Positions 37,350 to 55,708 of a stretch of 64,000 nucleotides of DNA are shown here, one piece after another. The position numbers were made by a program, and so were the translations under genes. Position 1 is the first letter of the stretch; every line of letters starts with the position of its first letter. The stretch covers positions 62,001 to 126,000 of the forward strand of contig JAFVUE010000004.1 in assembly GCA_017502845.1 (NCBI GenBank). Direction: 5' to 3'. Under the pieces are notes generated by a model. That model worked only from the letters and a program-made list of their open reading frames with translations. It did not search any database and was not told the DNA's origin. This DNA comes from Clostridia bacterium (GTDB lineage: Bacteria; Bacillota; Clostridia; UMGS1810).

Positions 37350-38261
37350 GTGAACAGAAAGAAATGGTTGAGCTGTTTGTTTGTGCTTATTACTTTGTGC
37401 GTTTCTCTGGTGTTTTCCGCTTGTCAGAAGGAAGATGGCGCTGCCGCAGAGAAAAAGCCGGAAAAAGAAACGGAAGTTACTGCAGAAGAGCAAATTTCTG
37501 TTGAAGATTTCTGCAACAAGGTTAAAGGATTCTGGTTTAATAAAAGCGAAAGTGGAGAATTAAGTATCGTTAGCTTTGAGAACGGAACTATGGACGATTT
37601 TGTTTATTGCTCAGAGTATAGTATTAAAGATGGAGTCATCAAAGATGCAAAAGAGGACGGAGCTGTTTTTGAAATAAAGGTTGAGTACAGAGAAGATTCA
37701 CATGGCAATGAAACAGAAGGAACTCTTCAGGAAACAACTTTTTCACTAAGTTCCAATGATGATTTTAGAAGAAAACTTATTCTTGTACGCGACAATGGGG
37801 TCAGTCTTAATTACGAGTATATAGGTGCAACTTATGATGAGGCAGAGGCGATTCTTGAGGATATAGGTCATTATGAAATCAATAATACAACAGATTCAAA
37901 AACTCCTGCAGGTTATGGAATGAGTATATACGATGTATACAAAACAAGAGAAACACTTGTTTTGAGTTATGTTAAATCACAGGAAAGGGAACTCGAGGAA
38001 CAAGCAAAAAACGAAAACAAGGTTGTGGATATTTATTCAGAAGGGACAACTGTTGTATTTGAGACTACACTTTTGCCATATCCTTCAGCAACACCTGAAG
38101 ATAAGGCGTTTATAAAGGATGTCTTTGAATCTTCCGAATCTGATATGCAATATCTGAGGTCTTCATTTGAGATAATGAAAAAGGAAGCTCCTGTTACAGC
38201 TGTAAGAATGGAAATCCGTGCAGCAAACGGTGATTTGATGTATGAATATACATTCAGATAA
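37350..38261 (+). CDS. Lipoprotein of unknown function
   Basis: 303 residues. The start is GTG 37350, directly preceded by AGGAGGGG; the upstream in-frame start lies in the promoter. Lipoprotein signal (NRKKWLSCLFVLITLCVSL) with lipobox FSAC. An acidic linker (to about 45) leads to a domain with short strands (FWFNKSESGELSIVSF, AVFEIKVEYRED) and a second domain of about 120 residues. No known family recognised. It has its own promoter and terminator. Confidence 0.8.
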   Translation: MNRKKWLSCLFVLITLCVSLVFSACQKEDGAAAEKKPEKETEVTAEEQISVEDFCNKVKGFWFNKSESGELSIVSFENGTMDDFVYCSEYSIKDGVIKDAKEDGAVFEIKVEYREDSHGNETEGTLQETTFSLSSNDDFRRKLILVRDNGVSLNYEYIGATYDEAEAILEDIGHYEINNTTDSKTPAGYGMSIYDVYKTRETLVLSYVKSQERELEEQAKNENKVVDIYSEGTTVVFETTLLPYPSATPEDKAFIKDVFESSESDMQYLRSSFEIMKKEAPVTAVRMEIRAANGDLMYEYTFR

Positions 38262-38299
38262 TATGGCTATGGAGTTCGAATCTCCTGAATGTATGGTAC

Positions 38300-38328
38300 A
38301 AAAAAAGCCACCCTTTTGGGTGGCTTTT
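38300..38328. terminator. Terminator after the 37350 gene
   Basis: AAAGCCACCC / GGGTGGCTTT stem with TTTT loop; T/A tracts on both sides make it usable in both directions. Confidence 0.8.
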
Positions 38329-38499
38329 CCTGTACGCGCCCGGAGAGAACCGTCAGCGATGCTGCCGCACGGCTTGTCGACCGTGCCAAAAGGCACAGTA
38401 CCCGACTGCGCCCCTGAAAACGCCAATGCCTACCGAGTGGTAGCCATTGGTAATCGTTTTCAGCCCTCTCAGAGTTCAAATCTCCTGAATGTATGGTAT

Positions 38500-38536
38500 A
38501 AAAAAAGACACCCTCTGTAGAGGATGTCTATTTTTT
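38500..38536 (-). terminator. Terminator of tRNA-Arg
   Basis: Minus strand AGACATCCTCT / AGAGGGTGTCT stem followed by TTTTTT. Confidence 0.85.
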
Positions 38537-38539
38537 ATA

Positions 38540-38613
38540 CGCGCCCGGAGAGATTCGAACTCCCGACCTACTGGTTCGTAGCCAGGCACTCTATCCAGCT
38601 GAGCTACGGGCGC
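38540..38613 (-). tRNA. tRNA-Arg (anticodon ACG)
   Basis: Cloverleaf: acceptor GCGCCCG with CGGGCGC, D arm GCTCAGCTGGATAGAGT, anticodon stem CTGG / CCAG with loop CTACGAA, so anticodon ACG (A34 presumably edited to inosine), and T arm GGGAGTTCGAATCTCTC. The discriminator base is G at 38540; CCA is not encoded. It has its own promoter and terminator. Confidence 0.95.
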
Positions 38614-38632
38614 AAATTTTTGCAACATAAGT

Positions 38633-38661
38633 AGTATACCACAGCAAATCTCAAAAATCAA
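38633..38661 (-). promoter_or_regulatory. Promoter of tRNA-Arg
   Basis: Minus strand TTGATT (38661-38656), 17 bases, TATACT (38638-38633). Confidence 0.7.
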
Positions 38662-38699
38662 GAGTTTTATTCAAATAAATTAAAATATTTTTATGTAAC

Positions 38700-38789
38700 A
38701 CGGGTGAGGATGGAACCTCGCCCCTGCATATCGTTCTGTCTATACCATCATCATGGCTATCGTAGGGGCGGATGCCCACATCCGCCCGT
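38700..38789. repeat. Inverted pair of GTAGGG-family palindromes
   Basis: An inverted copy at 38700-38727 (stem GGTGAGG/CCTCGCC, ending CCCCTGC) and a plus copy at 38762-38789 (stem GGGCGGATG/CATCCGCCC) flank a 34-base spacer ending ATGGCTATC. The pair lies between tRNA-Arg and the end of glgP. Confidence 0.75.
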
Positions 38790-38794
38790 TATAC

Positions 38795-41035
38795 TTACAA
38801 TTTCCATATATCCTTGTTGTATTCCGAAACTGTTCTGTCTGAGGAGAAATATCTCGCCTTTGAAATATTGACAAGCGTTTTTCTTGCCCAATCGGCACGG
38901 TTTTCGTAATCGTCGATTGCTTTGTCCTTAACTTTTACATAATCTTCAAAATCAAGCAACGTCATAAACCAGTCTTTGGTTATAATCTCGCTCTGGAGGC
39001 GTCGGAGAGAAGTGCTGTCGCCAATGGACAGCATTTTTGTATCGGTTATGAAATCCACCGCTTTTTTGATATAGGGATTGCCGCTGTAGATGGCGCGGGG
39101 ATTGTAACGACCGCTTTTGTAGAGGGCGATAACTTCATCAGCACTCTTGCCGAAAATATAAATATTGTTATTTCCGACTTCACGTGCAATCTCCACGTTT
39201 GCTCCGTCGGATGTGCCAAGCGTTACTGCGCCGTTTAACATAAACTTCATATTGCCCGTACCACTTGCCTCTTTTGATGCGAGAGAAATCTGCTCCGAAA
39301 TATCACAGGCAGGTATAAGTTTCTCCGCAACGGAAACGTTGTAATTTTCAATCATAACAACCGTCATATGCTCACGTGCAACGGGATCGGATTTAATAAG
39401 TTCCGAAAGGCAGAGTATAAGGTGTATTATATCTTTTGCCAATGTGTAGGCAGGAGCCGCCTTTGCCGCAAAGATAAATGTCAGGTGGCGTTTTGGGAGT
39501 TTTCCGGATTTTATGTCAAGGTATTTCTTTATTATATAAAGGGCGTTCAACTGTTGCCGTTTGTATTCGTGCAGACGTTTTGCCTGAACATCGAAGATAG
39601 AATCCTCACGTAGAACGATTCCCTCTTTTGCCATAAGGAATTCCTTAAGCCGCAGCTTGTTTTTACGCTTTATATGCATAAGTGCAGAAAGAACGTCTGT
39701 GTCATTTTCGTACATGGCAAATTCTTTTAATCTGTCCGCCTCACTTATAAATCCGTCTCCCGTAAGTCGGCGTATAAGTTCCGTAAGGTCGGGATTTGCC
39801 TGAATAAGCCAACGGCGGAACGTGATGCCGTTTGTCTTGTTGTTGAATCTGTCGGGGTACAGGTCATAGAAATTTTTAAGTTCCACGTTTTTAAGGATTT
39901 CCGTGTGCAGAGCCGCAACACCGTTTACGCTGAACGAAAAGTGTATGGCAAGGTGTGCCATATGCACAGTATCATTTTGTATAATATCCGTATTTTCGCC
40001 CTTGCCTTTTATAAGTGAATCCATTTTGCGGATAATATCCATAATCTCAGGTACTGCTTCCTCCAGATAACGGACAGGCCACTTCTCAAGTGCTTCGGCA
40101 AGTATTGTGTGGTTTGTGTATGCACACATTTTCTGCACTGTTTCCACCGCTTTTTCAAAGCCGATTCCCTTTGATGTAAGGATTCTCACAAGTTCGGGGA
40201 TAATCATAGCAGGGTGTGTATCGTTTATCTGCACAACTGCAAAGTCGGGAAGATTATTAAGGTCAGAGCCATTTGCAATTGCCTCGTCAATTATAAGTTG
40301 TGCGGCGTTGCTCACCATAAAATACTGTTGATACACACGGAGTTTCTTGCCCTTGTCGTCGCTGTCGTCAGGATAGAGGAAAAGTGTAAGATTCTCGTCA
40401 ACTTCTGTTTTGTCGAAGTTGATGCCCTCTTTGATGATGTTCTCGTCCACGCCTTTTACATCAAACAATCTCAATCTGTTGCAATCGCTTCCGTAACCTG
40501 AAACCGCCACGTCATAGAGTTCTGATTGTAAAGTAAACTTACCGTATTTCACAGAATACCCTTTGCCTGTGGGTATAAGCCAACTTTCGTCCTCAATCCA
40601 GTAGTCGGGTTCTTCTGTCTGCTTGTTCTTTTTGAATTTCTGGCGGAAAAGACCGCAATGATAACAAAGCCCCACACCGTCAGCAGGTAGACCTAATGTT
40701 GCCGCCGAATCCATAAAACACGCCGCAAGTCGACCAAGACCGCCGTTGCCGAGGGAAGGTTCGGGTTCCAATGACTCTATCTCCGCAAGTGAAACCCCTG
40801 CACTTTTAAGTTCGTTATCAACTATGTCGTAGATGCCGAGATTAATAAGGTTGGCAGATAATAACTTGCCGATGAGAAACTCCGCAGAAACATAATATAA
40901 CTTTTTCTTTCCCGTGTTAAGTCCACGTTCGTTTAATTTTTCGCCTGTGAATTTCAATAAGTTTCCGTATATCTCTTTGTGGGATAAATCACTCAATTCC
41001 CTGCCTGATGTTTTCTTGACATACTCTGCAAACAT
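38795..41035 (-). CDS. glgP: Glycogen/alpha-glucan phosphorylase
   Basis: 746 residues, slightly short for the family but complete in its motifs. It releases glucose 1-phosphate from alpha-1,4-glucans with pyridoxal phosphate. Signatures: YVSAEFLIGKLL, LEPEPSLGNGGLGRLAACF near residue 100, and the PLP site EASGTGNMKFMLNGA with the Schiff-base Lys near residue 590, followed by TLGTSDGANVEI. AAAGGAAAG precedes the ATG. It follows malQ by two bases, making a glycogen or maltodextrin breakdown operon. Confidence 0.96.
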   Translation of the reverse strand: MFAEYVKKTSGRELSDLSHKEIYGNLLKFTGEKLNERGLNTGKKKLYYVSAEFLIGKLLSANLINLGIYDIVDNELKSAGVSLAEIESLEPEPSLGNGGLGRLAACFMDSAATLGLPADGVGLCYHCGLFRQKFKKNKQTEEPDYWIEDESWLIPTGKGYSVKYGKFTLQSELYDVAVSGYGSDCNRLRLFDVKGVDENIIKEGINFDKTEVDENLTLFLYPDDSDDKGKKLRVYQQYFMVSNAAQLIIDEAIANGSDLNNLPDFAVVQINDTHPAMIIPELVRILTSKGIGFEKAVETVQKMCAYTNHTILAEALEKWPVRYLEEAVPEIMDIIRKMDSLIKGKGENTDIIQNDTVHMAHLAIHFSFSVNGVAALHTEILKNVELKNFYDLYPDRFNNKTNGITFRRWLIQANPDLTELIRRLTGDGFISEADRLKEFAMYENDTDVLSALMHIKRKNKLRLKEFLMAKEGIVLREDSIFDVQAKRLHEYKRQQLNALYIIKKYLDIKSGKLPKRHLTFIFAAKAAPAYTLAKDIIHLILCLSELIKSDPVAREHMTVVMIENYNVSVAEKLIPACDISEQISLASKEASGTGNMKFMLNGAVTLGTSDGANVEIAREVGNNNIYIFGKSADEVIALYKSGRYNPRAIYSGNPYIKKAVDFITDTKMLSIGDSTSLRRLQSEIITKDWFMTLLDFEDYVKVKDKAIDDYENRADWARKTLVNISKARYFSSDRTVSEYNKDIWKL

Positions 41036-41037
41036 AA

Positions 41038-42528
41038 TTACTTTCCTTTCCCTTTTTTATTGTCTCTTCCGTAGATTGCGGTAAGACGTTTCAGTTCGTT
41101 TCCGCATTTTGTATAATCTTTGTTAAGGCGCCAACACCAGTTGCCACCGAGAGTAGAGGGGACGTTTATCCGTGTCTCATCGCCAAGCATCAGTATATCC
41201 TGTATTGGCAGTATGCACATATCCGAAACACTTGACATTGCAAGTCGTATAAACCCCCTGCATATGTCTTCGATCTTGTTTTTGTCAATTCCCATATACT
41301 CTGATGCAAGTTTCAGTTCGTCTTGTGAGACAGACTTTGCCCAGCCCATGCAGGTGGGGTTGTCGTGAGTGCCTGTGTACACCACGGAATTTTGAATGTA
41401 ATTGTGGGGCATATAGTCATTGTCCATACTGTCAAATGCAAATTGCACCACTTTCATTCCCGGGCAACCAACACGACTAAGCAATTCCTTTACATCATCT
41501 GTTATAAAACCCAGATCCTCCGCTATTATGTTGAGATTGGGACAACCTTTCTGGAGTGCATCAAAAAGTTCTGCTCCCGGACCGGGATACCATTTACCGT
41601 TCTTTGCATTTTTGCTTTCGTAGGGGATGGCATAATAACTTTCAAGGCCCCTGAAATGGTCTATCCTCACCATATCAAAAAGTTCGGCGTTGCGGTTCAT
41701 CCTCTTAATCCACCAGTCGAATCCTGTTCGGCGCTGGTAGTACCAGTCGTATATGGGGCTTCCCCATAATTGACCGTCGGGCGAGAACGAATCGGGCGGA
41801 CAACCTGCCACAAATGCAGGTACTCCCTCTCTGTCGGTTAAGAAAAGTTCGGGTTTGCAACGGAGTTCCACGCTGTCCATAGCGGTGTATATCGGCATAT
41901 CCCCGATAATGCGGATTCCCTTTGAGTTGGCGTAATTTTTGATTGAGCACCATTGTTTCATAAACTCATATTGGAGGAATTTATGATAGTTGATACTTGC
42001 TATCAGTTGCTCTGCAAGTTTTCTTGACTGGGACGTGTGGGGAGAACGATATTCCTCGTCCCATTCTCTCATATCTCTTCCGCCGAAATATTCTTTTACA
42101 GCCGCAAATTCGCAGTACTCTCCGAGCCAGTATTTTTCACTTTCTTCAAAGAGAAGATAATTTTCGTCGGGAGCAAATCTGTCAAATGCCTTTCTTAATA
42201 TTGTGTGCCGTGTTCTGTATAAAAATCCGTAATCAATCTTATCCCCCTTGGGGCACTTGTCTTTGTATGATTCGCACTCTTCGGAGGTAAGAAGTCCCTC
42301 TTTGCAGAGAGTGTCAATGTCGATAAAATACGGATTCCCCGCAAATGCCGACGGACTCTGATATGGCGAATCTCCATAAGTCGTGGGCCCTAACGGCAGT
42401 ATCTGCCAGTATGATTGCCCCGAATCGCAGAGGAAATCTATAAATTTACGTGCTTCATCGGAAAAACAGCCGATTCCGTAAGGCGACGGGAGAGAAAATA
42501 CGGGCAGAAGTATTCCGCTTGTTCGCAT
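41038..42528 (-). CDS. malQ: 4-alpha-glucanotransferase (amylomaltase)
   Basis: 496 residues from ATG 42528 (AAAGGAC upstream); the 67 extra codons of open frame upstream have no family similarity. GH77 signatures: GILLPVFSLPSPYGIGCFS, YWQILPLGPTTYGDSPYQSPSAFAGNPYFID, the nucleophile region MVRIDHFRGLESYYAIP, the acid/base NIIAEDLGFI and the TGTHDNPT motif. It transfers alpha-1,4-glucan segments between maltodextrins, giving GlgP longer substrates. First gene of the malQ-glgP operon. Confidence 0.96.
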   Translation of the reverse strand: MRTSGILLPVFSLPSPYGIGCFSDEARKFIDFLCDSGQSYWQILPLGPTTYGDSPYQSPSAFAGNPYFIDIDTLCKEGLLTSEECESYKDKCPKGDKIDYGFLYRTRHTILRKAFDRFAPDENYLLFEESEKYWLGEYCEFAAVKEYFGGRDMREWDEEYRSPHTSQSRKLAEQLIASINYHKFLQYEFMKQWCSIKNYANSKGIRIIGDMPIYTAMDSVELRCKPELFLTDREGVPAFVAGCPPDSFSPDGQLWGSPIYDWYYQRRTGFDWWIKRMNRNAELFDMVRIDHFRGLESYYAIPYESKNAKNGKWYPGPGAELFDALQKGCPNLNIIAEDLGFITDDVKELLSRVGCPGMKVVQFAFDSMDNDYMPHNYIQNSVVYTGTHDNPTCMGWAKSVSQDELKLASEYMGIDKNKIEDICRGFIRLAMSSVSDMCILPIQDILMLGDETRINVPSTLGGNWCWRLNKDYTKCGNELKRLTAIYGRDNKKGKGK

Positions 42529-42609
42529 AGATGACGTCCTTTCGCTTTTTTTGTTAGTATGCATTGTGGGAAGCGGATTTATGTAAGCATTTATGAAAAG
42601 GTAATTGTG

Positions 42610-42638
42610 TTGACTAAAGCAATAAAAAATGATAATAT
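42610..42638 (+). promoter_or_regulatory. Possible promoter ahead of the DUF559 cassette
   Basis: TTGACT, 17 bases, TAATAT, lying outside the cassette, 25 bases before its left repeat. It overlaps the upstream region of malQ on the other strand. Confidence 0.45.
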
Positions 42639-42662
42639 AATCTGCGATGAAGAACCATAAAT

Positions 42663-43107
42663 GCCTCCCTTGTGTAAAGGGAGGTGGGTTGCGAAGCAAC
42701 TCGGAGGGATTGTAATGGACTATAAACACAACAAAGAAATTGTACCACTCGCAAAAACATTACGAAAGAATATGACAAAAGAAGAAAAGCATCTTTGGTA
42801 TGATTACTTAAGAGAATACCCTGTCAGATTTATACGACAGAAAGTTATAGGCAAATACATTGTTGATTTTTACTGTGCAAAAGCAAAAATTGTTATTGAA
42901 TTGGATGGCTCTCAGCATTACGAGGATAAAGGAATAGAAAAAGATGCTTTGAGAACAGAGTTTTTAGAACAGTATGGATTAAAAGTTATAAGAATATCCA
43001 ATCTTGATATAATCAAAAACTTTGAGGAAGTATGTATGTTTATTGATAATGAAGTTAAGCAATCCCTCAGTCAACTTCGTTGACAGCTCCCTTTACACAT
43101 GGGAGCC
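42663..43107 (+). mobile_element. DUF559 cassette with roughly 50-bp structured inverted repeats
   Basis: Left repeat 42663-42712 and right repeat 43060-43107 are inverse copies of one design: hairpin 1 (CTCCCTTGTGTAAAGGGAG left; GCTCCC/GGGAGC right), hairpin 2 with differing but self-pairing stems (GTTGC-GAA-GCAAC left, GTCAAC-GAA-GTTGAC right), then (A/G)AGGGATTG pointing inward. The gene fits exactly between: the left repeat supplies its ribosome site and the right repeat supplies its last codons, its stop and a terminator. A solo copy of the repeat is at 53769-53819. No target duplication was seen. Confidence 0.7.
42715..43083 (+). CDS. DUF559 (Vsr/endonuclease-like) protein
   Basis: 122 residues from ATG 42715, with GGAGGGATTGTA of the left repeat as ribosome site. 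DUF559 proteins have a Vsr/PD-(D/E)xK-like nuclease fold: here LRKNMTKEEKHLWYDYLR, VRFIRQKVIGKYIVDFYCAKAKIVIELDGSQHY (catalytic Asp in VDFYC and Glu-Leu-Asp-Gly) and GLKVIRISN. The last residues QSLSQLR are encoded by the right inverted repeat. Role unknown; a DNA-nicking function that moves the cassette or its repeats would fit the layout but is inferred. Confidence 0.88.
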   Translation: MDYKHNKEIVPLAKTLRKNMTKEEKHLWYDYLREYPVRFIRQKVIGKYIVDFYCAKAKIVIELDGSQHYEDKGIEKDALRTEFLEQYGLKVIRISNLDIIKNFEEVCMFIDNEVKQSLSQLR

Positions 43108-43114
43108 TTTTTTA
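43085..43114 (+). terminator. Terminator formed by the right cassette repeat
   Basis: GCTCCC / GGGAGC stem with a nine-base loop and CTTTTTTT, directly after the DUF559 stop. Confidence 0.8.
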
Positions 43115-43139
43115 TGTTCGTGCTTTTATAACAATACAC

Positions 43140-43168
43140 TTGATATTTTATAAAATCTGTGCTATAAT
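43140..43168 (+). promoter_or_regulatory. Promoter of structured RNA copy B
   Basis: TTGATA, 17 bases, TATAAT; the -10 box ends seven bases before G43175, the same geometry as copy A. Confidence 0.85.
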
Positions 43169-43174
43169 AACTAT

Positions 43175-43413
43175 GCCAAACAAATTTAATATTAGATTAG
43201 TTACGTGCGTTTTTATTTTGGTAAAAGCGTGTACTTTTTTATGCACTAACTAATGCTAATGAATTTGTTTGGCGACAATTCGGAGTACGCGTTTTTCATG
43301 CGCTGACTTTGAGTTGGCGCATTTTTTAATTTATAAGGACAAGTGTTCCTGAGGTTGTCTACACCACGCATTCGATTATACAAAAGCGGACGGGATAATC
43401 CCGTCCGCTTTTG
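43175..43413 (+). ncRNA. Structured non-coding RNA, copy B, unassigned class
   Basis: About 239 nt. It shares with copy A the closing helix GCCAAACAAATT / AATTTGTTTGGC, the inner GTACTTTTTTA, and the 61-base block with hairpin ATGCGC / GCGCAT (one base differs). Other helices keep the pairing with new bases: inner helix TTAG-ATTAGTTA / TAACTAAT-CTAA, apical GTTTTTA / TAAAAGC, small hairpin AGGA / TCCT, terminator GCGGACGGG / CCCGTCCGC. The aconitase gene downstream has its own promoter after the RNA terminator, so this is not a leader of that gene. Confidence 0.85.
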
Positions 43414-43437
43414 TGTGTTTTTATATTCGGCTAAATC

Positions 43438-43466
43438 TTGACAAAATCTATATTTTTTTATACAAT
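43438..43466 (+). promoter_or_regulatory. Promoter of the aconitase gene
   Basis: TTGACA, 17 bases, TACAAT, 32 bases before the TTG start. Confidence 0.8.
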
Positions 43467-43498
43467 ATAACGTAAGACTAAAGTGGGAGGAAATTACA

Positions 43499-45418
43499 TT
43501 GAATATTACACAGAAAATTATTAAAAATCATCTTGTGTCAGGTAATATGGTTGCAGGTGAGGAAATCTCTATCCGTATTGACCAGACACTTACACAGGAC
43601 TCCACAGGTACTATGGCGTATCTGGAGTTTGAGGCAATCGGTATTCCAAGAGTAAAGACAAAGAAATCTGTTGCATACATTGACCACAATACTCTTCAGT
43701 CCGGATTCGAGAATGCTGATGACCACAAATATATTCAGACAGTTACGAAGAAACACGGTATCCATTTTTCACGTCCCGGTAACGGTATCTGCCATCAGGT
43801 ACACCTTGAGAGATTCGGTGTCCCCGGTATGACACTCCTCGGCTCTGACAGCCACACACCTACAGGCGGCGGTATCGGTATGCTCGCAATCGGTGCAGGT
43901 GGTATGGACGTTGCTGTTGCAATGGGCGGCGGTGCATATTACCTTACTATGCCCAAAGTTGTTAAAGTAAATCTTACAGGCAAACTCAATCCCTGGGTTG
44001 CCGCAAAAGATATTATTCTCGAAGTTCTCCGCAGATTAAGCGTTAAAGGCGGCGTTGGTAAAGTTATCGAGTACGTTGGCGAGGGCGTTAAATCCCTGAC
44101 AGTTCCCGAACGTGCTACAATCACAAATATGGGTGCAGAACTCGGTGCGACCACATCTGTATTCCCCAGTGATGAAACAACAAGAGCATTCCTCAAAGCA
44201 CAGGGCAGAGAAGAAGATTACACAGAGATTCTTCCCGATGCTGATGCTACTTATGATGAAGAACTCACAATCGACCTTTCAACTCTTGCACCTATGGCGG
44301 CAAAACCCCATATGCCCGATAATGTTGATACTATCACAAATATCGGTCCCATCAAGGTTGATCAGGTTGCAATCGGTTCATGCACAAACTCATCTTATAT
44401 GGATATGATGAAAGTTGCCAGAATCTTAAAAGGTAACACAGTTCACGAGGATGTAAGCTTGGTTATTGCTCCCGGTTCAAAGCAGGTACTCAATATGCTT
44501 TCACAGAACGGCGCTCTTGCTGATATGATTGCTGCAGGTGCGAGAATTCTTGAATCTGCTTGTGGTCCCTGTATCGGTATGGGACAGTCTCCCAAGACAG
44601 ATGCGATTTCACTTCGTACATTCAACCGTAACTTTGAGGGCAGAAGCGGAACAGTTTCCGCACAGGTTTACCTCGTAAGCCCCGAGGTTGCTGCAATCTC
44701 TGCTATCAAAGGTGTGCTGACAGACCCAAGAGAACTTGATATGTCAAACATCATTGATATGCCCGAGAAATTCTTAATCAACGACAATATGGTAGTAGAA
44801 CCCGCTCCCGAGGGTAACGATGTAGAGGTTGTACGTGGCCCTAACATCAAACCGTTCCCCGTGAATGTGGCGCTCCCCGAAAACCTTAAAGGCAAATCGC
44901 TCATCAAGGTTGAGGACAATATCACAACAGACCACATTATGCCCTCAAATGCTAAACTTCTGCCTTACCGTTCGAATGTTCCTTATCTTTCAGAATATTG
45001 CCTTACACCCTGCGATCCCGAATTCCCCGCACGTGCTAAAGAGAACGGCGGCGGATTCATCATCGGCGGTTCAAACTACGGTCAGGGTTCAAGCCGTGAA
45101 CACGCAGCACTTGCTCCCCTGTATCTCGGTATCAAGGCAGTTATAGTTAAGTCCTTTGCACGTATTCATATGGCAAACCTTATCAACTCCGGTATTCTCC
45201 CGCTCGTTCTTGAGAATGAGGCGGATTATGACCGCATTGATATGATGGACGAACTCGCAATTGACGATGTTCGCACACAGCTTACATCAGGCAACAAGAT
45301 TGTAGTTAAGAATATTACAAAAGGTATAGAAATCCCCACAATCATCAATGTATCCGACAGACAGAAGGATATGCTCCTTGCCGGTGGATTGCTCAACTAT
45401 ACAAGAGAAAATAACTAA
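43499..45418 (+). CDS. Aconitate hydratase
   Basis: 639 residues, the length of the compact clostridial aconitase. The start is a TTG at 43499 with GGGAGG eight bases upstream. Cluster cysteines: GSCTNSS (about 294) and ACGPCIGMGQ (about 354 and 357). Other signatures: GSDSHTPTGGG, DNITTDHIMPS and the swivel-domain motif GGSNYGQGSSREHAA. It interconverts citrate and isocitrate, probably for glutamate synthesis in an incomplete oxidative branch. Isocitrate dehydrogenase and citrate synthase genes are not in the window. A 3-isopropylmalate or homoaconitase assignment is less likely because both domains are fused. Confidence 0.93.
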   Translation: MNITQKIIKNHLVSGNMVAGEEISIRIDQTLTQDSTGTMAYLEFEAIGIPRVKTKKSVAYIDHNTLQSGFENADDHKYIQTVTKKHGIHFSRPGNGICHQVHLERFGVPGMTLLGSDSHTPTGGGIGMLAIGAGGMDVAVAMGGGAYYLTMPKVVKVNLTGKLNPWVAAKDIILEVLRRLSVKGGVGKVIEYVGEGVKSLTVPERATITNMGAELGATTSVFPSDETTRAFLKAQGREEDYTEILPDADATYDEELTIDLSTLAPMAAKPHMPDNVDTITNIGPIKVDQVAIGSCTNSSYMDMMKVARILKGNTVHEDVSLVIAPGSKQVLNMLSQNGALADMIAAGARILESACGPCIGMGQSPKTDAISLRTFNRNFEGRSGTVSAQVYLVSPEVAAISAIKGVLTDPRELDMSNIIDMPEKFLINDNMVVEPAPEGNDVEVVRGPNIKPFPVNVALPENLKGKSLIKVEDNITTDHIMPSNAKLLPYRSNVPYLSEYCLTPCDPEFPARAKENGGGFIIGGSNYGQGSSREHAALAPLYLGIKAVIVKSFARIHMANLINSGILPLVLENEADYDRIDMMDELAIDDVRTQLTSGNKIVVKNITKGIEIPTIINVSDRQKDMLLAGGLLNYTRENN

Positions 45419-45439
45419 TTTACCTAAAGGAGAATTCCT

Positions 45440-45865
45440 ATGGAAGCAAAACTCAAAAAAGGCGCACTTGGTTATAAATCCAAAGAGGTAGAGGCGTATC
45501 TTATAGAAATGTCCAACAAATACCTTGCCGATATTAAAGAGAAAGACGAACAGATTGCAAAATTAAATGCGAAGATCGAACGTCTTGAGGGCAAGATAGA
45601 CGGTTATGAGGAAGAACGTCTTTCCGTTGCTGATGCACTTGTTAAGGCACAGAAAGAAGCCCAGGATATTTTGGATGCCGCAGTAACTGAGGCAGAGGCA
45701 CAGCGCGAGAAAATCCGTAAGGATTGCGATATCTTGAATAAAAAGATTGACGAAGCCAAGGACACTCTCGCCGCTTTGCAGAAAGATGCCCTTAAAGTTA
45801 TGGAAGATTACAAAGCAGTAGTTGAGGAATTCACAGATTTTTCAGGTATCGGGGATGAAGATTGA
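45440..45865 (+). CDS. DivIVA-like coiled-coil protein
   Basis: 141 residues, AAAGGAG upstream. The first 30 residues (KKGALGYKSKEVEAYLIEMSNKY) resemble the membrane-binding DivIVA head, which senses curved membrane; the rest is a continuous coiled coil (about 32-125) rich in Lys, Glu and Ala. It could be a small DivIVA/GpsB-type scaffold of cell division or growth. Its last 11 bases overlap ispE. Confidence 0.7.
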   Translation: MEAKLKKGALGYKSKEVEAYLIEMSNKYLADIKEKDEQIAKLNAKIERLEGKIDGYEEERLSVADALVKAQKEAQDILDAAVTEAEAQREKIRKDCDILNKKIDEAKDTLAALQKDALKVMEDYKAVVEEFTDFSGIGDED

Positions 45866-46694
45866 AGGACGCGCCAAGATAAACTTGGCACTATCCGTGG
45901 AGGGACTTCTGGAGAACGGTTATCATCGGGTAAAGATGATAATGCAGGAGATAGCCCTTTGCGACGAAATCTCGTTGGAATTTGGAAAAAGTGGTGTAAA
46001 CCTTTCCTGCAACGTTTCGCAAATTCCCACAGACAGTAGAAATATCGCCTACCGCGCGGCAGAACTTTTTTATGCTGTTACGGGCATTGACGACGGTGTT
46101 AATATTCATATCGAAAAGGTTATCCCCTCCGAGGCAGGTCTTGGCGGCGGAAGTGCTGACGGAGCCGCTGTGCTCAAAGGTATGAATGAACATTATGGCA
46201 ACCCGATTCCCTATGGCGAACTGATTTCTCTCGGTGCAAAGATCGGTGCTGATGTTTCTTTTTGTATAATGGGCGGAACGGCACTTGCAGAGGGTATCGG
46301 CGAAGTGCTTACTCCAATTGATAGTAAAGTAAAAGCGGATATCCTTATAGTCAAACCCGATGTGGGCATCTCAACACCATGGGCGTATAAACGTCTTGAT
46401 GAAGTTGGCTGTACACCTTGCGATGTGGATAGTGTTGTATCTGCTCTTGAAAAAGGAGATACAAAAGAACTTTGCAGGAGTATGGCAAACACTTTTGAAA
46501 TCGTTGTACCCGAGGTTGCTCCGGAAATAGATGCGATAAAATCAAAACTCATCGGATACGGTGCACTCGGCGCGATGATGAGCGGCAGTGGAACAGCAGT
46601 TTTTGGAATATTTGACGATGCGGACACACTTGAACGTGCCTGTGAAGATTTTAGAGATAACTATCCATATGTGTTCAAATCAAAGATGCTGTAA
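45855..46694 (+). CDS. ispE: IspE, 4-diphosphocytidyl-2-C-methyl-D-erythritol kinase
   Basis: 279 residues from ATG 45855, which begins the family sequence (GRAKINLALSVEGLLENGYH) and overlaps the previous gene by 11 bases. GHMP-kinase motifs: PSEAGLGGGSADGAAVL (ATP-binding glycine loop) and the C-terminal GALGAMMSGSGTAVFGIF. It phosphorylates the C2 hydroxyl of CDP-methylerythritol in the MEP pathway, upstream of IspG (15591). Confidence 0.95.
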   Translation: MKIEGRAKINLALSVEGLLENGYHRVKMIMQEIALCDEISLEFGKSGVNLSCNVSQIPTDSRNIAYRAAELFYAVTGIDDGVNIHIEKVIPSEAGLGGGSADGAAVLKGMNEHYGNPIPYGELISLGAKIGADVSFCIMGGTALAEGIGEVLTPIDSKVKADILIVKPDVGISTPWAYKRLDEVGCTPCDVDSVVSALEKGDTKELCRSMANTFEIVVPEVAPEIDAIKSKLIGYGALGAMMSGSGTAVFGIFDDADTLERACEDFRDNYPYVFKSKML

Positions 46695-46720
46695 TTTTAT
46701 AGATAATAAGGAGAAATACC

Positions 46721-46990
46721 ATGAAGAAGATCAAAATTGTGCTCGTATTTTCACTTGTTGCAGTTTTGGTATTCCTTTCGGGATGCGCCATGAGCAATAA
46801 ACCATGTGAATATTGCGGCGATACTCCCACCAAAGGGTATACCACATCAGATGATAAAAAGTTTTATGTGTGCCGGGACTGCAGCTCTGAATGTATGTTC
46901 TGCGGAGACAGAGCCACAAAGCATTATACAAATTTGCTTGGTATGGAAATGTTTGTTTGCAGAGATTGTTATAACGAAATCGTAGATTAA
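46721..46990 (+). CDS. Lipoprotein with two CxxC...CxxC zinc-ribbon motifs
   Basis: 89 residues, AAGGAG upstream. Lipoprotein signal (MKKIKIVLVFSLVAVLVF) with lipobox LSGC. The mature part is two tandem four-cysteine modules, CEYCGDTPTKGY...CRDC and CMFCGDRATKHY...CRDC, separated by about 18 residues. A zinc ribbon outside the cell membrane is unusual; redox or metal binding is possible. No family recognised. Confidence 0.8.
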   Translation: MKKIKIVLVFSLVAVLVFLSGCAMSNKPCEYCGDTPTKGYTTSDDKKFYVCRDCSSECMFCGDRATKHYTNLLGMEMFVCRDCYNEIVD

Positions 46991-46991
46991 C

Positions 46992-47052
46992 AAAAACCGA
47001 TACTGTAAGGCGTATCCCTATGGAGCACTGCCTTAAAGTATCGGCTTTTTAT
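46992..47052 (+). terminator. Terminator after the zinc-ribbon lipoprotein gene
   Basis: Outer stem CCGATACT / AGTATCGG, inner TAAGGC / GCCTTA, then TTTTT. The loop holds TCCCTATGGAGCAC, shared with the RNase J leader (59900 area). Confidence 0.82.
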
Positions 47053-47057
47053 GGCTA

Positions 47058-47087
47058 TTGACAACACGCACATTTCGGTAGTATAAT
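47058..47087 (+). promoter_or_regulatory. Promoter of the 47140 lipoprotein gene
   Basis: TTGACA, 18 bases, TATAAT. Confidence 0.75.
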
Positions 47088-47139
47088 GTGGACGTTACTA
47101 ATATATTTATATGGATATATTTATATGGAGGATAGGAAT

Positions 47140-47598
47140 ATGAATGTGAAAAGAATTTTAAGCGTACTTTTGATAATGTGCATGGCGTTTGCTGTTGTTG
47201 GTTGTAACAAAAAAGTTGATTATAACAAAGTAAAATGGGAGGGCTATGATGAAGCGCCTTTCCTGGAAATGCTTGAAAAAGGTGTTCCTGATATGCTTGA
47301 CCCTGATGATGACACTATCGAGGTAGATGTTTCTGTAAAAGAAGGATGGGAAGAATCAGATACTCTGGATGAAGAAACTCTTGAAGACGGATGTAAAGCC
47401 GTAACATATGAGATAAATGCGTCAAACGACAAACAATCTGTGAAATTCTATTTCCTTATGGAATACGATAAGGATTCAGATGCTCTTATTGCGAGAGAAG
47501 CGATTGTATTACAGGATGGCGGAGGCAGAAAAACATACGATGTTAAGGACACAGAAGATGCTCTTTACGAGTTGAAAGATTCTATGGATAGCAAATAA
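47140..47598 (+). CDS. Lipoprotein of unknown function (paralogue of 47751)
   Basis: 152 residues from ATG 47140 with GGAGGATAGG upstream. Signal peptide MNVKRILSVLLIMCMAFAV and lipobox VVGC. The mature part contains APFLEMLEKGVPDMLDPDDDTIEVDVSVKEGWEES and a SVKFYFLMEYDKDSD strand pair. The next lipoprotein has the same sequence blocks (PFIELLQTGIPRMLDPDNDTM, MKLYFFMEYDVE), so the two are recent tandem paralogues. Function unknown. Confidence 0.8.
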   Translation: MNVKRILSVLLIMCMAFAVVGCNKKVDYNKVKWEGYDEAPFLEMLEKGVPDMLDPDDDTIEVDVSVKEGWEESDTLDEETLEDGCKAVTYEINASNDKQSVKFYFLMEYDKDSDALIAREAIVLQDGGGRKTYDVKDTEDALYELKDSMDSK

Positions 47599-47621
47599 TT
47601 CAACCACAATGGAGAAAGTTT

Positions 47622-47702
47622 ATGAACGGATTGATTACCGGCGCGGTCTTCTCATTCTGTGTAATGAGCAGAATGGTAACTTTGGGACGTTTTGAAGGAT
47701 AA
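47622..47702 (+). CDS. Possible 26-residue small protein
   Basis: GGAGAAAG stands seven bases before an ATG that opens a 26-codon frame (NGLITGAVFSFCVMSRMV...) ending in TAA. The peptide is hydrophobic. The ribosome site and position between two lipoprotein genes make it plausible, but length is too short to be sure. Confidence 0.3.
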   Translation: MNGLITGAVFSFCVMSRMVTLGRFEG

Positions 47703-47750
47703 ACGTCATTATGTGTTCAAATCAAAGATGGTATAGCAGGAGTATTTCTT

Positions 47751-48311
47751 ATGAGAAAAAGAAGGATAATAAGTATACTGTTAATTATGTGTATGGCGCT
47801 TTCATTTACCGGATGTGCCCAAATCTCCGAGTATGGTCGTAATTTTATTAAGTATATTTACAATTATGGTAAAAAGACTGAACGAAGTCAGGAAGATATC
47901 AACGGCGAAGTAGTAAAAGAAGCGGTATATCAGGTTGACTTTGAAGTGGCGCAATACGAACGCTATCCGAATGTGCCTTTTATAGAACTTCTGCAGACAG
48001 GTATTCCCAGGATGCTTGATCCTGATAACGATACAATGAAGGCAACGATTATAGTAATAGAAGACTGGTCAGAATCATCTGTCCTCAATGTTGAAACAAA
48101 CCTTTCCAACCCCATGAACAGAGCAGTAACTTACGTTGGCGATGTTTCCACCGACCAGATGACAATGAAACTGTATTTCTTTATGGAGTATGATGTAGAG
48201 AGAAAAGTTATGGTGTCAAAAGGCGGTAAAGTTGTTGTTGATGATATGGTGGAAGAGGTTGACGCAGCAGAGATAGAATCAACGCTTGATGATATTATGA
48301 GCAGTATGTAA
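47751..48311 (+). CDS. Lipoprotein of unknown function (paralogue of 47140)
   Basis: 186 residues. Lipoprotein signal MRKRRIISILLIMCMALSF with lipobox FTGC, then an extra 45-residue charged segment not present in its paralogue, then the shared domain (FIELLQTGIPRMLDPDNDTM, EDWSESSVLNVE, MKLYFFMEYDVERK). GCAGGAG lies nine bases upstream. A 21-base copy of the 3' end of ispE stands just before it (47710-47730). Confidence 0.8.
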   Translation: MRKRRIISILLIMCMALSFTGCAQISEYGRNFIKYIYNYGKKTERSQEDINGEVVKEAVYQVDFEVAQYERYPNVPFIELLQTGIPRMLDPDNDTMKATIIVIEDWSESSVLNVETNLSNPMNRAVTYVGDVSTDQMTMKLYFFMEYDVERKVMVSKGGKVVVDDMVEEVDAAEIESTLDDIMSSM

Positions 48312-48326
48312 AATTAATTAAAATAC

Positions 48327-48363
48327 AAAAGCCCGATATTCCCCAGAGTATCGGGCTTTTTAT
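48327..48363 (+). terminator. Terminator after the 47751 lipoprotein gene
   Basis: AAAAGCCCGATA / TATCGGGCTTTTT stem. Confidence 0.85.
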
Positions 48364-48399
48364 TGTGTTGAAAAATCTCGCCAAGGATATTTCTATAAT

Positions 48400-48438
48400 A
48401 AAAAAACAACGGATGTTCTTTAAGAACATCCGTTGCTG
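48400..48438 (-). terminator. Terminator after the solute-binding protein gene
   Basis: Minus strand AACGGATGTTCTT / AAGAACATCCGTT stem followed by GTTTTTTT. Confidence 0.88.
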
Positions 48439-48457
48439 TGAAATCTTAAATCAAATA

Positions 48458-50020
48458 TCAGTTGGCCATAAATCTGTCATAAGCTGCCTGATAGATAGAG
48501 AGCATCTCGTCAAGACCACGGTTTCTCAATTCAGTCATATGTTTGCCGTAGTTTGAGATAGGTTCTGTTCCTATAACCATCTTTGTTACAACTTCGCTTT
48601 CATATGTCTTGATAATACCCTGGATTTCGGTGAGTTTTGCTTTCTCGTCAGCTGTGAGAGGCCACTCAAGAGTCATAAGACGTGTGTCGCCTTCATCCCA
48701 GACAATAGAAGCATCTTTCTGCTGAGGTGTGCCGTACTGTGCTGCTGCATAAGCTTCAGCATCAACGATTTTTGCAGGATAATCATGAGCAACGTCGGCA
48801 TAGAGTCCAAGTGCCTGGAGACGTGATTTGCCGTCGGGATTGTTTGTAACGAAATCGGTAAGTTTGTATTCGCCGTTTTCAATCACATAAGATTTGCCTT
48901 CAATACCCCAGTTCTGGAGGATTGTACCTTCTTCGCTGTAGAGGTAATCCATAAATCTGAATGCAACGTCAAGGTTAGCACATTTTGTTGTGATTACAGA
49001 ACCTGTATCTGTAGAAGTTCTTCTTGTGAAGTCCATAGGAATGTAGTTGGGAGCACCTGCTTCTTTTGAGGGCCAGGGAGCAGCAACCAGGTTGTAGTTG
49101 GGGTCTGCCTGACCTGCTGTGAGGTATGTACCCATACCACTTCCAACATATGCAATACAAGCACCGGAAGTACCGTTTGTCATGTAAGCGTCCTGTGTGG
49201 CCTTTTCAAGTGCGGGATATTCGCTGTCAAGGAGGCCTTCTTTGTACCATTTGTTCATTTCAGTAACAAATGCTTTGTATTCGGGCTGCATAAAGCCGTA
49301 AACAACTTTGCCGTTCTTTACATAGATACCGCTTCTTGTGCCGAAAGCACCTGCAAACTGTTTGAATGCAGCAGCTTTGTAATCAGCAAAGGGAATCTCG
49401 TCAGCTTTTCCGTTGCCGTTGGGGTCCTGAGTCTTGAATGCTTTAAGAACGGTGTACCACTCATCAATTGTGGTAGGCATCTCGAGATTAAGTTTGTCAA
49501 GCCAGTCCTTACGGATCATAGGACCATAACATGCGTTAACTGAGGTGTCTTCTTTAACAGATGCGAAATAGAGCAATTTTCCGTCAACAGTACGGATAGA
49601 TCTATCTACGTCGGGATTTTCTGCAAGAACTTTTGAGTATGTAGGCAATTTATCCATCTTGTCTGTAAGGTCAACGATGACGCCGTCATTGAGGGCACCC
49701 TCATAACCGCCGTTGTACTTGGAACCCCAGTTCCAGTGGATAATGTCTGTGTAATCGCCGGAAGCGATCATAATATTAAAGCTTTCTTCCCATGCAGCAG
49801 ATGAAGGGTGAACAAACTCAACTGTAATTCCGAGGTTCTCCTGGATTTTCATCATGCCTTCCAACTGACCGAAGTTATCCTGGCCGCCGGGACCACGCGC
49901 ACCCATCCATAATGTCAGGCTTCCTGTTGCGAGTTCCTCTTTCTCGCCGCCGCATCCTGCTAAGGCAGAAACTGTCAGCAAAGCAATGAGAGCAACACAA
50001 AGGATTTTTCTGAGTTTCAT
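48458..50020 (-). CDS. Extracellular solute-binding lipoprotein (carbohydrate ABC family 1)
   Basis: 520 residues. Lipoprotein signal MKLRKILCVALIALLTVS, lipobox LAGC. The sequence after it (LTLWMGARGPGGQDN...MMKIQENLGITVEF, GDYTDIIHWNWG, MIRKDWLDKLNLEMPTTIDEWYTVLKAFK) is that of family 1 solute-binding proteins of the LplA/YtcQ kind, which bind complex oligosaccharides for ABC importers. ABC permease genes, which usually follow, are absent, so it is an orphan binding protein serving permeases encoded elsewhere or acting as a sensor. GAGGT precedes the ATG. Confidence 0.9.
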   Translation of the reverse strand: MKLRKILCVALIALLTVSALAGCGGEKEELATGSLTLWMGARGPGGQDNFGQLEGMMKIQENLGITVEFVHPSSAAWEESFNIMIASGDYTDIIHWNWGSKYNGGYEGALNDGVIVDLTDKMDKLPTYSKVLAENPDVDRSIRTVDGKLLYFASVKEDTSVNACYGPMIRKDWLDKLNLEMPTTIDEWYTVLKAFKTQDPNGNGKADEIPFADYKAAAFKQFAGAFGTRSGIYVKNGKVVYGFMQPEYKAFVTEMNKWYKEGLLDSEYPALEKATQDAYMTNGTSGACIAYVGSGMGTYLTAGQADPNYNLVAAPWPSKEAGAPNYIPMDFTRRTSTDTGSVITTKCANLDVAFRFMDYLYSEEGTILQNWGIEGKSYVIENGEYKLTDFVTNNPDGKSRLQALGLYADVAHDYPAKIVDAEAYAAAQYGTPQQKDASIVWDEGDTRLMTLEWPLTADEKAKLTEIQGIIKTYESEVVTKMVIGTEPISNYGKHMTELRNRGLDEMLSIYQAAYDRFMAN

Positions 50021-50719
50021 GTTTTTACCTCATTTCTTAATAAAGTGTGTTTCTGGTTTCATTCTACATCATGAAAAGAAAAAAAGCAATATACAAATTA
50101 TAATATGTAGCCCAAAAACATTCAGAAGGCAAAAAATAAAACCCGAAAAGGACGTTTTTGAAATGTTGTGAAGTTGCCGGGGAATATCCTGCTGAAAACC
50201 GCTTATATATTATATATAAAAGGAAGCTTTTTTCAATTTGACGGAATTTCTCATCAAATTGCACAATTTAACAGGGGTATAACTGTACACAATATAAGAA
50301 AAAACAAAATGGAGCACAAAATTCAAAAAACAAATAAAAAAATCCTTGACAGTTTGCGATAAAAAATATAAAATATATTAGGTGGAAGAATGTGTATGCC
50401 TTTTTTGGATAGATACATAGGTGCTTATTTATATTATATATAATAGGTACACAAGTTTTGTTTCGGAACTTTTCTTCCCTTTATAATGGTTATAGCAAAA
50501 GTGTGTTGTCAGGATTTTTTCTAGGAAAATCCTTACTTTACATTTTTGTTACAACAATAAAATGTGCATTGACGAAGCAATCTGTGGATGCTATAATCAA
50601 TGCATAAACTAGAAGTTTTTCTAGTGATGTGTCTGGTTGTATATGAAAGAGATGCGGCCGGTTAACACTAAAAAACGTAATCTCTTTCAAAAAAATATTT
50701 TAAGGAGGCTTTGAGAATT
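50021..50719 (+). promoter_or_regulatory. 699-base upstream region of the second SLH gene
   Basis: No gene seen. Two promoter-like pairs face the SLH gene: TTGACA (50346)-17-TAAAAT and TTGACG (50569)-17-TATAAT (50592-50597). The downstream leader of about 115 bases has hairpins CTAGAA / TTCTAG and GAAAGAGAT / ATCTCTTTC just before AAGGAGG. Further upstream are a TATATATTATATATA palindrome (about 50202) and a CAATTTGA / TCAAATTG hairpin (about 50235). The arrangement suits a strongly expressed, stable mRNA. Confidence 0.6.
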
Positions 50720-53662: not shown

Positions 53663-53697
53663 TTCTTAATTGAATTAATTCAACACAATAATTAATC

Positions 53698-53736
53698 GCA
53701 CCGCACTCCTCATGAGTGCGGTGCTTTTAATTTTGC
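53698..53736 (+). terminator. Terminator after the second SLH gene
   Basis: GCACCGCACTC / GAGTGCGGTGC stem with CTCAT loop and TTTTAATTTT. Confidence 0.92.
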
Positions 53737-53755
53737 ATTTGTATTTGCATTCCTC

Positions 53756-54270
53756 ACGTCTACGGAACGCCTCCCTTGTGCAAAGGGAGGTGTCTGCCAA
53801 CGGCAGACGGAGGGATTGTGTTTCGCACTATACGTGTGGCTATGAACAACTTCCTTTTCCACATTGTAGGGGCGATTTACGAATTGCCCGTACCTTTTGC
53901 TACGATTGTCACGGCCACTACCAATCTCTCCCTTTCCACACCGTAGGGCATGGTCTTGCTACTGCCGCTTTATATTTACTCATTATTATGGCTACGATAT
54001 GACCCTTTCATTATTACCTCTTCCTTAAAAACGTAGGGTTCGGCGGTTTCCGACGAACCGCCTTTTATATGTTTACTATCCCCATGTCTACGTAACTCCC
54101 TTTTCCTTTTCACATGTAGGGGACGATGCCCACATCGTCCCGCTATGTATGTCCACTCTCCCTACGGCTACAGAATGCCTTTTTCCTTTTACTTTCGTCT
54201 TCTTTGTTACGCTCATTCCCACGGCTACAAAGCTATTATCCTTCATGTTTTTTCGTCAACCTATGTTTAA
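53756..54270. repeat. Degenerate tandem array of palindrome-bearing units
   Basis: A 515-base gene-free stretch. A phrase like ACGGCTACRRA recurs at about 53758, 53838, 53912, 53989, 54085, 54163 and 54220, that is every 75-95 bases, usually followed by a pyrimidine-rich CTCCCTTTTCC run and then a GTAGGG-family palindrome (53866-53891, 53943-53968, 54033-54062, 54116-54142). The first unit carries instead a solo copy of the DUF559-cassette repeat (53769-53819). No reading frame of convincing design was found. Confidence 0.65.
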
Positions 54271-54308
54271 CTACTTTCCTTGTGATTTACGTCATTTATT
54301 TTCCATTA

Positions 54309-54344
54309 TAAAAGCCGTGTGAGATTAATCTCATACGGCTTAAT
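54309..54344 (-). terminator. Terminator after the AI-2E family gene
   Basis: Minus strand AAGCCGTATGAGATT / AATCTCACACGGCTT stem followed by TTATAAT. Confidence 0.8.
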
Positions 54345-54369
54345 TCATTATATTTAATAATAGCACAGA

Positions 54370-55569: not shown

Positions 55570-55708
55570 TTTGATTCCTCGATTCAAAAGAATGGTATTG
55601 ATGAAATTATTATACACCAATATTTTCATATTGTACATATTTTTTGTGCTAAAATTAACCAAACAGTAATATACATTTATAAACGAACAGAATAAAAGGA
55701 GGATTACC

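Follow-up and report, generated by a model that had tools for sequence, protein, structure and literature searches.

The locus at positions 42663-43107 of the window (the whole stretch of 64,000 nucleotides that was analysed, C3:62001-126000 of an 820-kb, 72%-complete genome) holds, as read directly, a gene for a 122-aa protein lying between inverted double-hairpin repeats. The initial annotation had described it as a DUF559 nuclease-like gene packaged in hairpin-bearing inverted repeats, and this was confirmed: a repeat search of the window recovered the inverted pair blind, and a profile search assigned the gene (42715..43083, plus strand) to PF04480 with an E-value of 2.2e-30 (105.2 bits against a gathering cut-off of 20.6). 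Together with the predicted structural model described below, this identifies a nuclease of the PD-(D/E)XK / EDxHD / Vsr fold. The left repeat (42663..42712, plus strand) consists of hairpin 1 (42664-42684, CCTCCCTT..AAGGGAGG), hairpin 2 (42688-42700, GTTGC-GAA-GCAAC) and a tail (42703-42712, GGAGGGATTG), and belongs to the end type that we call L by its outer pair C-G and the G that begins its tail. The right repeat (43060..43107, minus strand) has the tail at 43060-43069, hairpin 2 at 43070-43084 (GTCAAC-GAA-GTTGAC) and hairpin 1 at 43086-43106, and is an R-type end by its outer pair G-C and tail-first base T. That the palindrome also occurs alone was borne out by an L-type copy without a gene at 53769..53818 (plus strand; hairpin 2 GTCTGCC-AAC-GGCAGAC), which is matched by our repeat covariance model R1, and by a second solo copy in the same genome (C2:36003). 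Window and genome together contain one DUF559 gene, with five R1 matches genome-wide. As single-stranded DNA the left, right and solo copies each fold as two hairpins (z of -4.5, -4.0 and -3.9), and none of 200 shuffles was equally stable.

The repeats also appear to take part in expression of the gene. The left tail ends 2 nt upstream of the ATG at 42715 and contains a good Shine-Dalgarno site, in agreement with the role proposed for the inward tail; GGAGGGATTG occurs twice on the plus strand of the window against 0.09 occurrences expected. The right repeat had been said to encode the last seven residues and then to form the terminator. The coding part of this claim holds, the repeat encoding QSLSQLR followed by the stop codon. 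A run of six T follows the right hairpin, which a strict terminator scan left without a score because its loop of 9 exceeds the limit of 8. Of the two hairpins only the left one obtained a score, on the minus strand, and the terminator role of the right repeat is therefore no more than plausible. The minus-strand score at 42664-42684 falls on the strand of a malQ-like gene, just upstream of its start. A sigma-70-like promoter (TTGACT-17-TAATAT, 9 of 12) is found at 42610..42638 on the plus strand, outside the L end; an alignment of upstream regions showed it to be conserved across other copies in the subfamily of the window copy, and the upstream homology of L001 reaches -142/-144. The neighbouring genes are presumably malQ-like and aconitase-like, judging from their translations. 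Because the malQ side is not kept beside the aconitase gene in relatives, no empty site for the window locus was obtained. Models of defence systems gave no more than weak partial matches.

Repeat classes and two end types

An exact-pattern scan of 84,980 species genomes found at least 120 matching stretches, and the titles read among the matches listed were nearly all from Clostridia, with one from Dokdonia (Bacteroidota). The second hairpin was expected to differ in sequence between copies while always pairing, and this is what we found. Among 161 distinct copies there were 93 different hairpin 2 stems, all still pairing, with a commonest stem length of 6 versus 4 in shuffles. In 51 aligned copies of several sequence classes, 15 base pairs were kept in 91.3% of cells, and cells in which both bases had changed numbered 185 versus 65.5 in shuffles (none of 500 shuffles as high); sliding the alignment by 1-3 columns brought pairing down to 41-57%. 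In several classes, reading the 3' arm of hairpin 1 backwards, without complementing it, gives a sequence similar to the tail (AAAGGGAG/GAGGGAT and GGGAGAG/GAGAGGG).

Beyond the initial annotation, we observed that the repeats come as two end types, that the units have spread into other phyla and that some are inserted in frame. The L type (outer pair C-G, G before the tail) accounts for 143 distinct copies and the R type (outer pair G-C, T before the tail) for 128, while 15 copies deviate from this scheme. When gene-free neighbours no more than 110 nt apart were compared (n = 61, leaving out loci L322-L339 of genome G003), 45 were arranged tail-inward, 9 tail-outward and 7 in tandem. The tail-inward pairs combined one L with one R in 44 of 45 cases, or in 36 of 37 when one pair per locus was counted; equal random pairing would give about half. 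On this basis the gene-free pairs resemble miniature elements requiring one end of each type. The gene-bearing units were less uniform. The strict end parser left 56 of 80 DUF559 elements without one or both ends typed (31 of the 80 without any), and the 24 with both ends typed were 15 LR, 1 RL, 5 RR and 3 LL, so that 8 of 24 are RR or LL.

Association of the repeats with DUF559 genes

Within the family of the window (16 genomes), DUF559 is present in 10 genomes at 19 places, with flanking repeats at almost all of them, and the class of the repeat varies with the subfamily of the DUF559 gene. The initial annotation had proposed counting the repeats that flank DUF559 genes. This was done with full-length DUF559 elements, leaving out fragments, contig-edge copies and weak domain matches, and with control ORFs of at least 90 aa from the same loci. 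Upstream, 63 of 80 DUF559 genes had a hairpin within 130 nt, compared with 13 of 178 control ORFs; downstream, 56 of 77 had one within this distance, compared with 24 of 153. At least one side was flanked in 72 of 77 elements and both sides in 45. DUF559 genes lacking such repeats, named beforehand as evidence against the link, do exist as a minority: 5 of the 77 elements have no hairpin on either side, and no clear flanking repeats were seen at the E. coli-labelled, Azospirillum, Photobacterium and K101 DUF559 copies examined.

The covariance model R1 was then applied to 291 genomes belonging to the class. Every one of the 42 that have a strong small DUF559 (PF04480 E-value of 2e-12 or below) yielded matches, at least five in each, compared with 32 of the 249 genomes without one (Fisher, 9e-31). 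R1 was trained on repeat copies beside DUF559 in these very genomes and the comparison is therefore not blind; the matches in excess of the two flanking copies are the stronger part of the result. Repeats that show no association with DUF559 had been the other proposed counter-evidence, and here the association holds genome-wide, with those 32 genomes as its exceptions. Genomes G010, G062, G065, G137, G205 and G240 have at least 20 repeat matches and no strong DUF559; the gene may have been lost, or another mobiliser may be at work.

The class of hairpin 1 also follows the protein. With five hairpin-1 classes assigned to 57 of 75 proteins, the class changed 7 times on the protein tree compared with 23.5 times after shuffling, and none of 200 shuffles gave a number as low. 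The upstream and downstream classes agreed in 36 of 37 elements. Some of this agreement between class and tree is to be expected, since the ends move together with the gene. An informal look at solo repeats genome-wide against the class of the resident DUF559 gave a mixed picture.

Unit boundaries, insertion sites and spread

Pairwise BLAST comparison of independent elements showed where the shared DNA ends. Upstream, identity ended between -4 and +10 nt from the outer edge of the repeat in 325 of 473 ordered pairs; the corresponding downstream count was 366 of 498. In most of the remaining ordered pairs the identity extends beyond the repeat edge. The flanks of separate DUF559 insertions are unrelated. 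In one DUF559 subfamily (L129, L148, L150-L152, L155 and L169) the unit is longer, its left boundary being sharp at -212 (CCTATAACTCGATTTTCTGTG), and carries a promoter of its own; the window copy shares part of this longer unit. A burst of 20 copies in genome G003 (L322-L331, L339) was considered as an amplification of DUF559 and rejected, as it represents a separate MITE, bounded by terminal inverted repeats of its own (ATAAATTATTGTTTA../..TAAACAATAATTTAT), that carries an L-R pair in many near-identical copies. Copy number by itself therefore proves nothing, and other elements are able to carry L-R pairs.

A search for empty sites in close relatives, suggested along with the count, gave one near-clean insertion and one loss. 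In genome G031, exactly 1,004 bp containing a DUF559 gene (L168) are absent from G118 and G065, the flanks being 96% identical. Sequence at the empty site is continuous and free of repeats, and in the filled site AATC, a 4-bp duplication, flanks the insert on either side. The insert comprises four tandem L ends, the DUF559 gene and an R end, plus about 60 and 37 nt outside the ends. Because it runs past the repeats in this way, the exact termini of the element may lie elsewhere than at the repeats. The tandem ends (L168:1086-1471) are four copies of a 114-bp segment, each holding an L end, upstream of the gene.

The second case is the unit L175 of G230, which is missing in the close relative G125. 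There the flanks are joined at a lone hairpin-1 palindrome, the two halves of which correspond to the outer half of the R end and that of the L end of L175; no target duplication distinct from the palindrome overlap is seen at the G230 site. On the simplest reading, the palindrome in G125 is the scar of a lost unit, since G074 retains a decayed unit at the same site; the alternative is a palindrome that was there before, and a palindrome is also present at this site in G170 and G210. For gene-free pairs, a 20-kb comparison of G031 with G118 and G065 gave mosaics and no clean empty site. Sinorhizobium K101 and C101 were considered as an insertion polymorphism and rejected, as the DUF559 locus is identical apart from three single-base differences.

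The flanking-hairpin plan of DUF559 is kept in Bacteroidota, Alphaproteobacteria, Deinococcota and Cyanobacteriota, with repeats of a related plan beside DUF559 in records of Sinorhizobium, Sphingomonas, Deinococcus and Synechocystis. In Sinorhizobium meliloti Ak57 (L262, CP090106) a DUF559 gene lies between near-perfect inverted repeats (SW 106); this record of 3.7 Mb is labelled pSymB and is probably a chromosome. DUF559 was found in 78 of 148 Bacteroidota genomes, and in several of them (L246, L251, L257, L236, L238 and L243) the domain is in frame within a host protein, its flanking repeats being translated as linker peptides. In the MetH of L246, the insert spans residues 466-626, where E. 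coli MetH has a linker of five residues, and in the LeuRS of L257 the homology to the host protein runs up to 464 and resumes at 627; at these sites relatives have no more than a short loop. The domain is also found inside the ORFs of HsdR, HsdM and DNA methylases, and at one end of HemD and of N-formylglutamate amidohydrolase.

A candidate mobility enzyme and its alternatives

The AlphaFold2 model of the window protein (pLDDT 88.5, pTM 0.82) matched 3hrl (Z 15.1), the homing endonuclease I-Bth0305I (3r3p, Z 12.7, rmsd 2.5 over 95 residues) and Vsr (1cw0, Z 10.8). Holliday resolvases and TnsA were rejected as fold relatives, as their Z of about 7 is at background level. Residues invariant over 42 DUF559 sequences include E24, D51, E62, D64, H68, D77 and R93. 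Judging by the predicted fold, the protein should cut or nick DNA.

We directly observed the association of gene and repeat, the boundaries of the units, the pairing of L with R, the co-variation of class and protein, one recent insertion, one loss and the in-frame invasion of host genes. We regard as real a recurrent mobile unit that has REPIN-like anatomy and an unrelated enzyme. By analogy with REP systems, the DUF559 protein is most likely the mobility enzyme, and cleavage would occur at the hairpin or the tail. The best explanation, to which we give about an even chance, is a small selfish mobile element of the form [L end]-DUF559 gene-[R end], in which DUF559 would act on its own class of ends. 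The double hairpins would be the ends of the element; the Vsr/EDxHD-type nuclease would recognise the hairpin-plus-tail of its own class, and would nick or cut there or at a target. Such cutting could allow the unit to reach new sites by copying or relocation, either through single-strand transfer or through break-and-copy, and gene-free L-R pairs would be mobilised in trans, as RAYTs are thought to do for REPINs. More broadly, and with somewhat less than even confidence, we suggest that DUF559 nucleases may drive the mobility of a class of transposable elements distributed across the bacteria, with distinct L and R double-hairpin ends. Such elements would scatter gene-free L-R miniatures and could insert in frame into coding sequences, so that MetH or LeuRS genes keep an open reading frame with a nuclease embedded in it; they would be a third route, besides HUH and DDE enzymes, for the spread of hairpin-ended repeats.

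Homing is the main alternative, suggested by the EDxHD fold and by the palindromes present at the G230 site. The repeats would then be older and independently spread, and DUF559 would be an EDxHD-like homing endonuclease, not a transposase, that cleaves repeat sites lacking the gene, homologous repair then copying the gene in with the repeats serving as homology arms. We consider this rather unlikely. In its favour, I-Bth0305I is the second-best fold match, PMC9403480 counts a DUF559 gene among the EDxHD homing family, the site of L175 has a lone palindrome where the unit is absent and a palindrome in G170 and G210 too, and 32 of 249 genomes have repeats without a strong DUF559. However, the empty site in G118 and G065 is without any repeat, separate insertions have unrelated flanks, relatives of the MetH and LeuRS insertions have nothing but a short loop at the site, and the repeat class tracks the DUF559 clade.

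It is also conceivable, although we judge it unlikely, that the hairpin pairs are mobilised in trans by a different enzyme, be it a Y1/HUH TnpA or various IS transposases, and that the DUF559 gene became trapped as cargo between two ends, where a role in repair or restriction may have preserved it. Y1_Tnp matches are present in 26 of 38 repeat-rich genomes, that of the window included, and the MITE of G003 is a foreign element with an L-R pair aboard. The longer unit of one subfamily and the extra flanks in G031 suggest other outer ends, and segments with a transposase and DUF559 are recombination hotspots in Legionella according to PMC12308824. Yet 12 of the 38 repeat-rich genomes gave no Y1_Tnp match, several of them more than 90% complete (G245, G065, G205, G160, G280, G182, G001 and G116 are among those at 92% or above), and a Y1 transposase acting in trans is therefore less likely as a general explanation. 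No other gene is common to the units, DUF559 keeps its flanking hairpins across the phyla named above, and the repeat class agrees with the protein tree. Finally, the repeats could be ordinary intergenic terminators or RNA stabilisers under selection, immobile, with DUF559 adjacent by chance or for regulation. The T tract after hairpin 1 of the right copy and the minus-strand terminator score of the left copy fit such a role, which we nevertheless find very improbable in the face of 44 L+R pairs out of 45, fixed unit edges at unrelated places, the presence or absence of a unit between 96%-identical genomes and in-frame copies within coding genes; it would be tenable only if those insertions were assembly artefacts.

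DUF559 is a large family whose members usually carry the label 'unknown function' or 'endonuclease', and the genomes of gut Clostridia are strewn with short hairpin repeats of the CTCCC/GGGAG type. Should repeat and protein prove to be partners, an enzyme and a mechanism open to testing could be assigned to a widespread genomic repeat, and many palindromes so far unexplained, in-frame insertions in housekeeping genes among them, would represent traces of a single kind of mobile element. The family also provides a small nuclease with a possible structure-based recognition of hairpin DNA. These results suggest a little-studied kind of jumping element that recurs across gut bacteria and beyond, including within essential genes. 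In the available portions of the open-access literature searched, a set apart from subscription papers, no link of DUF559 to such hairpin repeats was found; a DUF559 gene is reported beside mam in Faecalibacterium.

The initial annotation had compared the locus to REP/RAYT systems with a different enzyme family. The anatomical part of this comparison stands, and the action of the enzyme on the repeats is what we infer. As in REP/REPIN-RAYT systems, short hairpin repeats with an unpaired tail occur solo and as inverted pairs with a short spacer, and they flank a single- or few-copy enzyme gene of matching class. Inverted doublets are over-represented in both: REP doublets are 93% inverted according to PMC3116915, and 45 of the 61 close neighbours here are tail-inward. 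Unlike RAYTs, which are Y1 HUH tyrosine transposases (PF01797), the enzyme here is a DUF559/Vsr-fold nuclease (PF04480), the ends carry two hairpins, and pairs almost always join one L and one R. The GTAG tag, for which PMC8266576 describes a role in REP systems, was absent beside hairpin 1 in the aligned copies, in which the tails read G/T-GAGGG or GATGAGG.

Other known systems share single features with these units. EDxHD homing endonucleases such as I-Bth0305I, and the DUF559 proteins of phages and inteins, have the same catalytic fold, but here we saw no intron or intein; the units have their own inverted repeats and gene-free miniature forms, and lie at unrelated places instead of at one homing site. 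The Vsr mismatch nickase also has the same fold. To our knowledge, hairpin ends are not part of Vsr biology, and no cytosine methyltransferase was seen by eye beside the window gene among the ORFs at 38000-56000. Caulobacter VsrA, which also shares the fold, is a DUF559 Vsr-like protein according to PMC12907096. MITEs of DD(E/D) insertion sequences resemble the present units in having non-autonomous forms with inverted ends and a related gene-bearing form, and a 4-bp duplication (AATC) was found at one site here, with the edges there lying outside the hairpin ends. The ends here are pairs of hairpins, however, and not simple terminal inverted repeats, and there is no DDE gene inside. Rickettsia palindromic elements are palindromic repeats inserted in frame in protein genes. 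We know of no nuclease carried by them, whereas in the Bacteroidota proteins it is the DUF559 domain itself that has been inserted.
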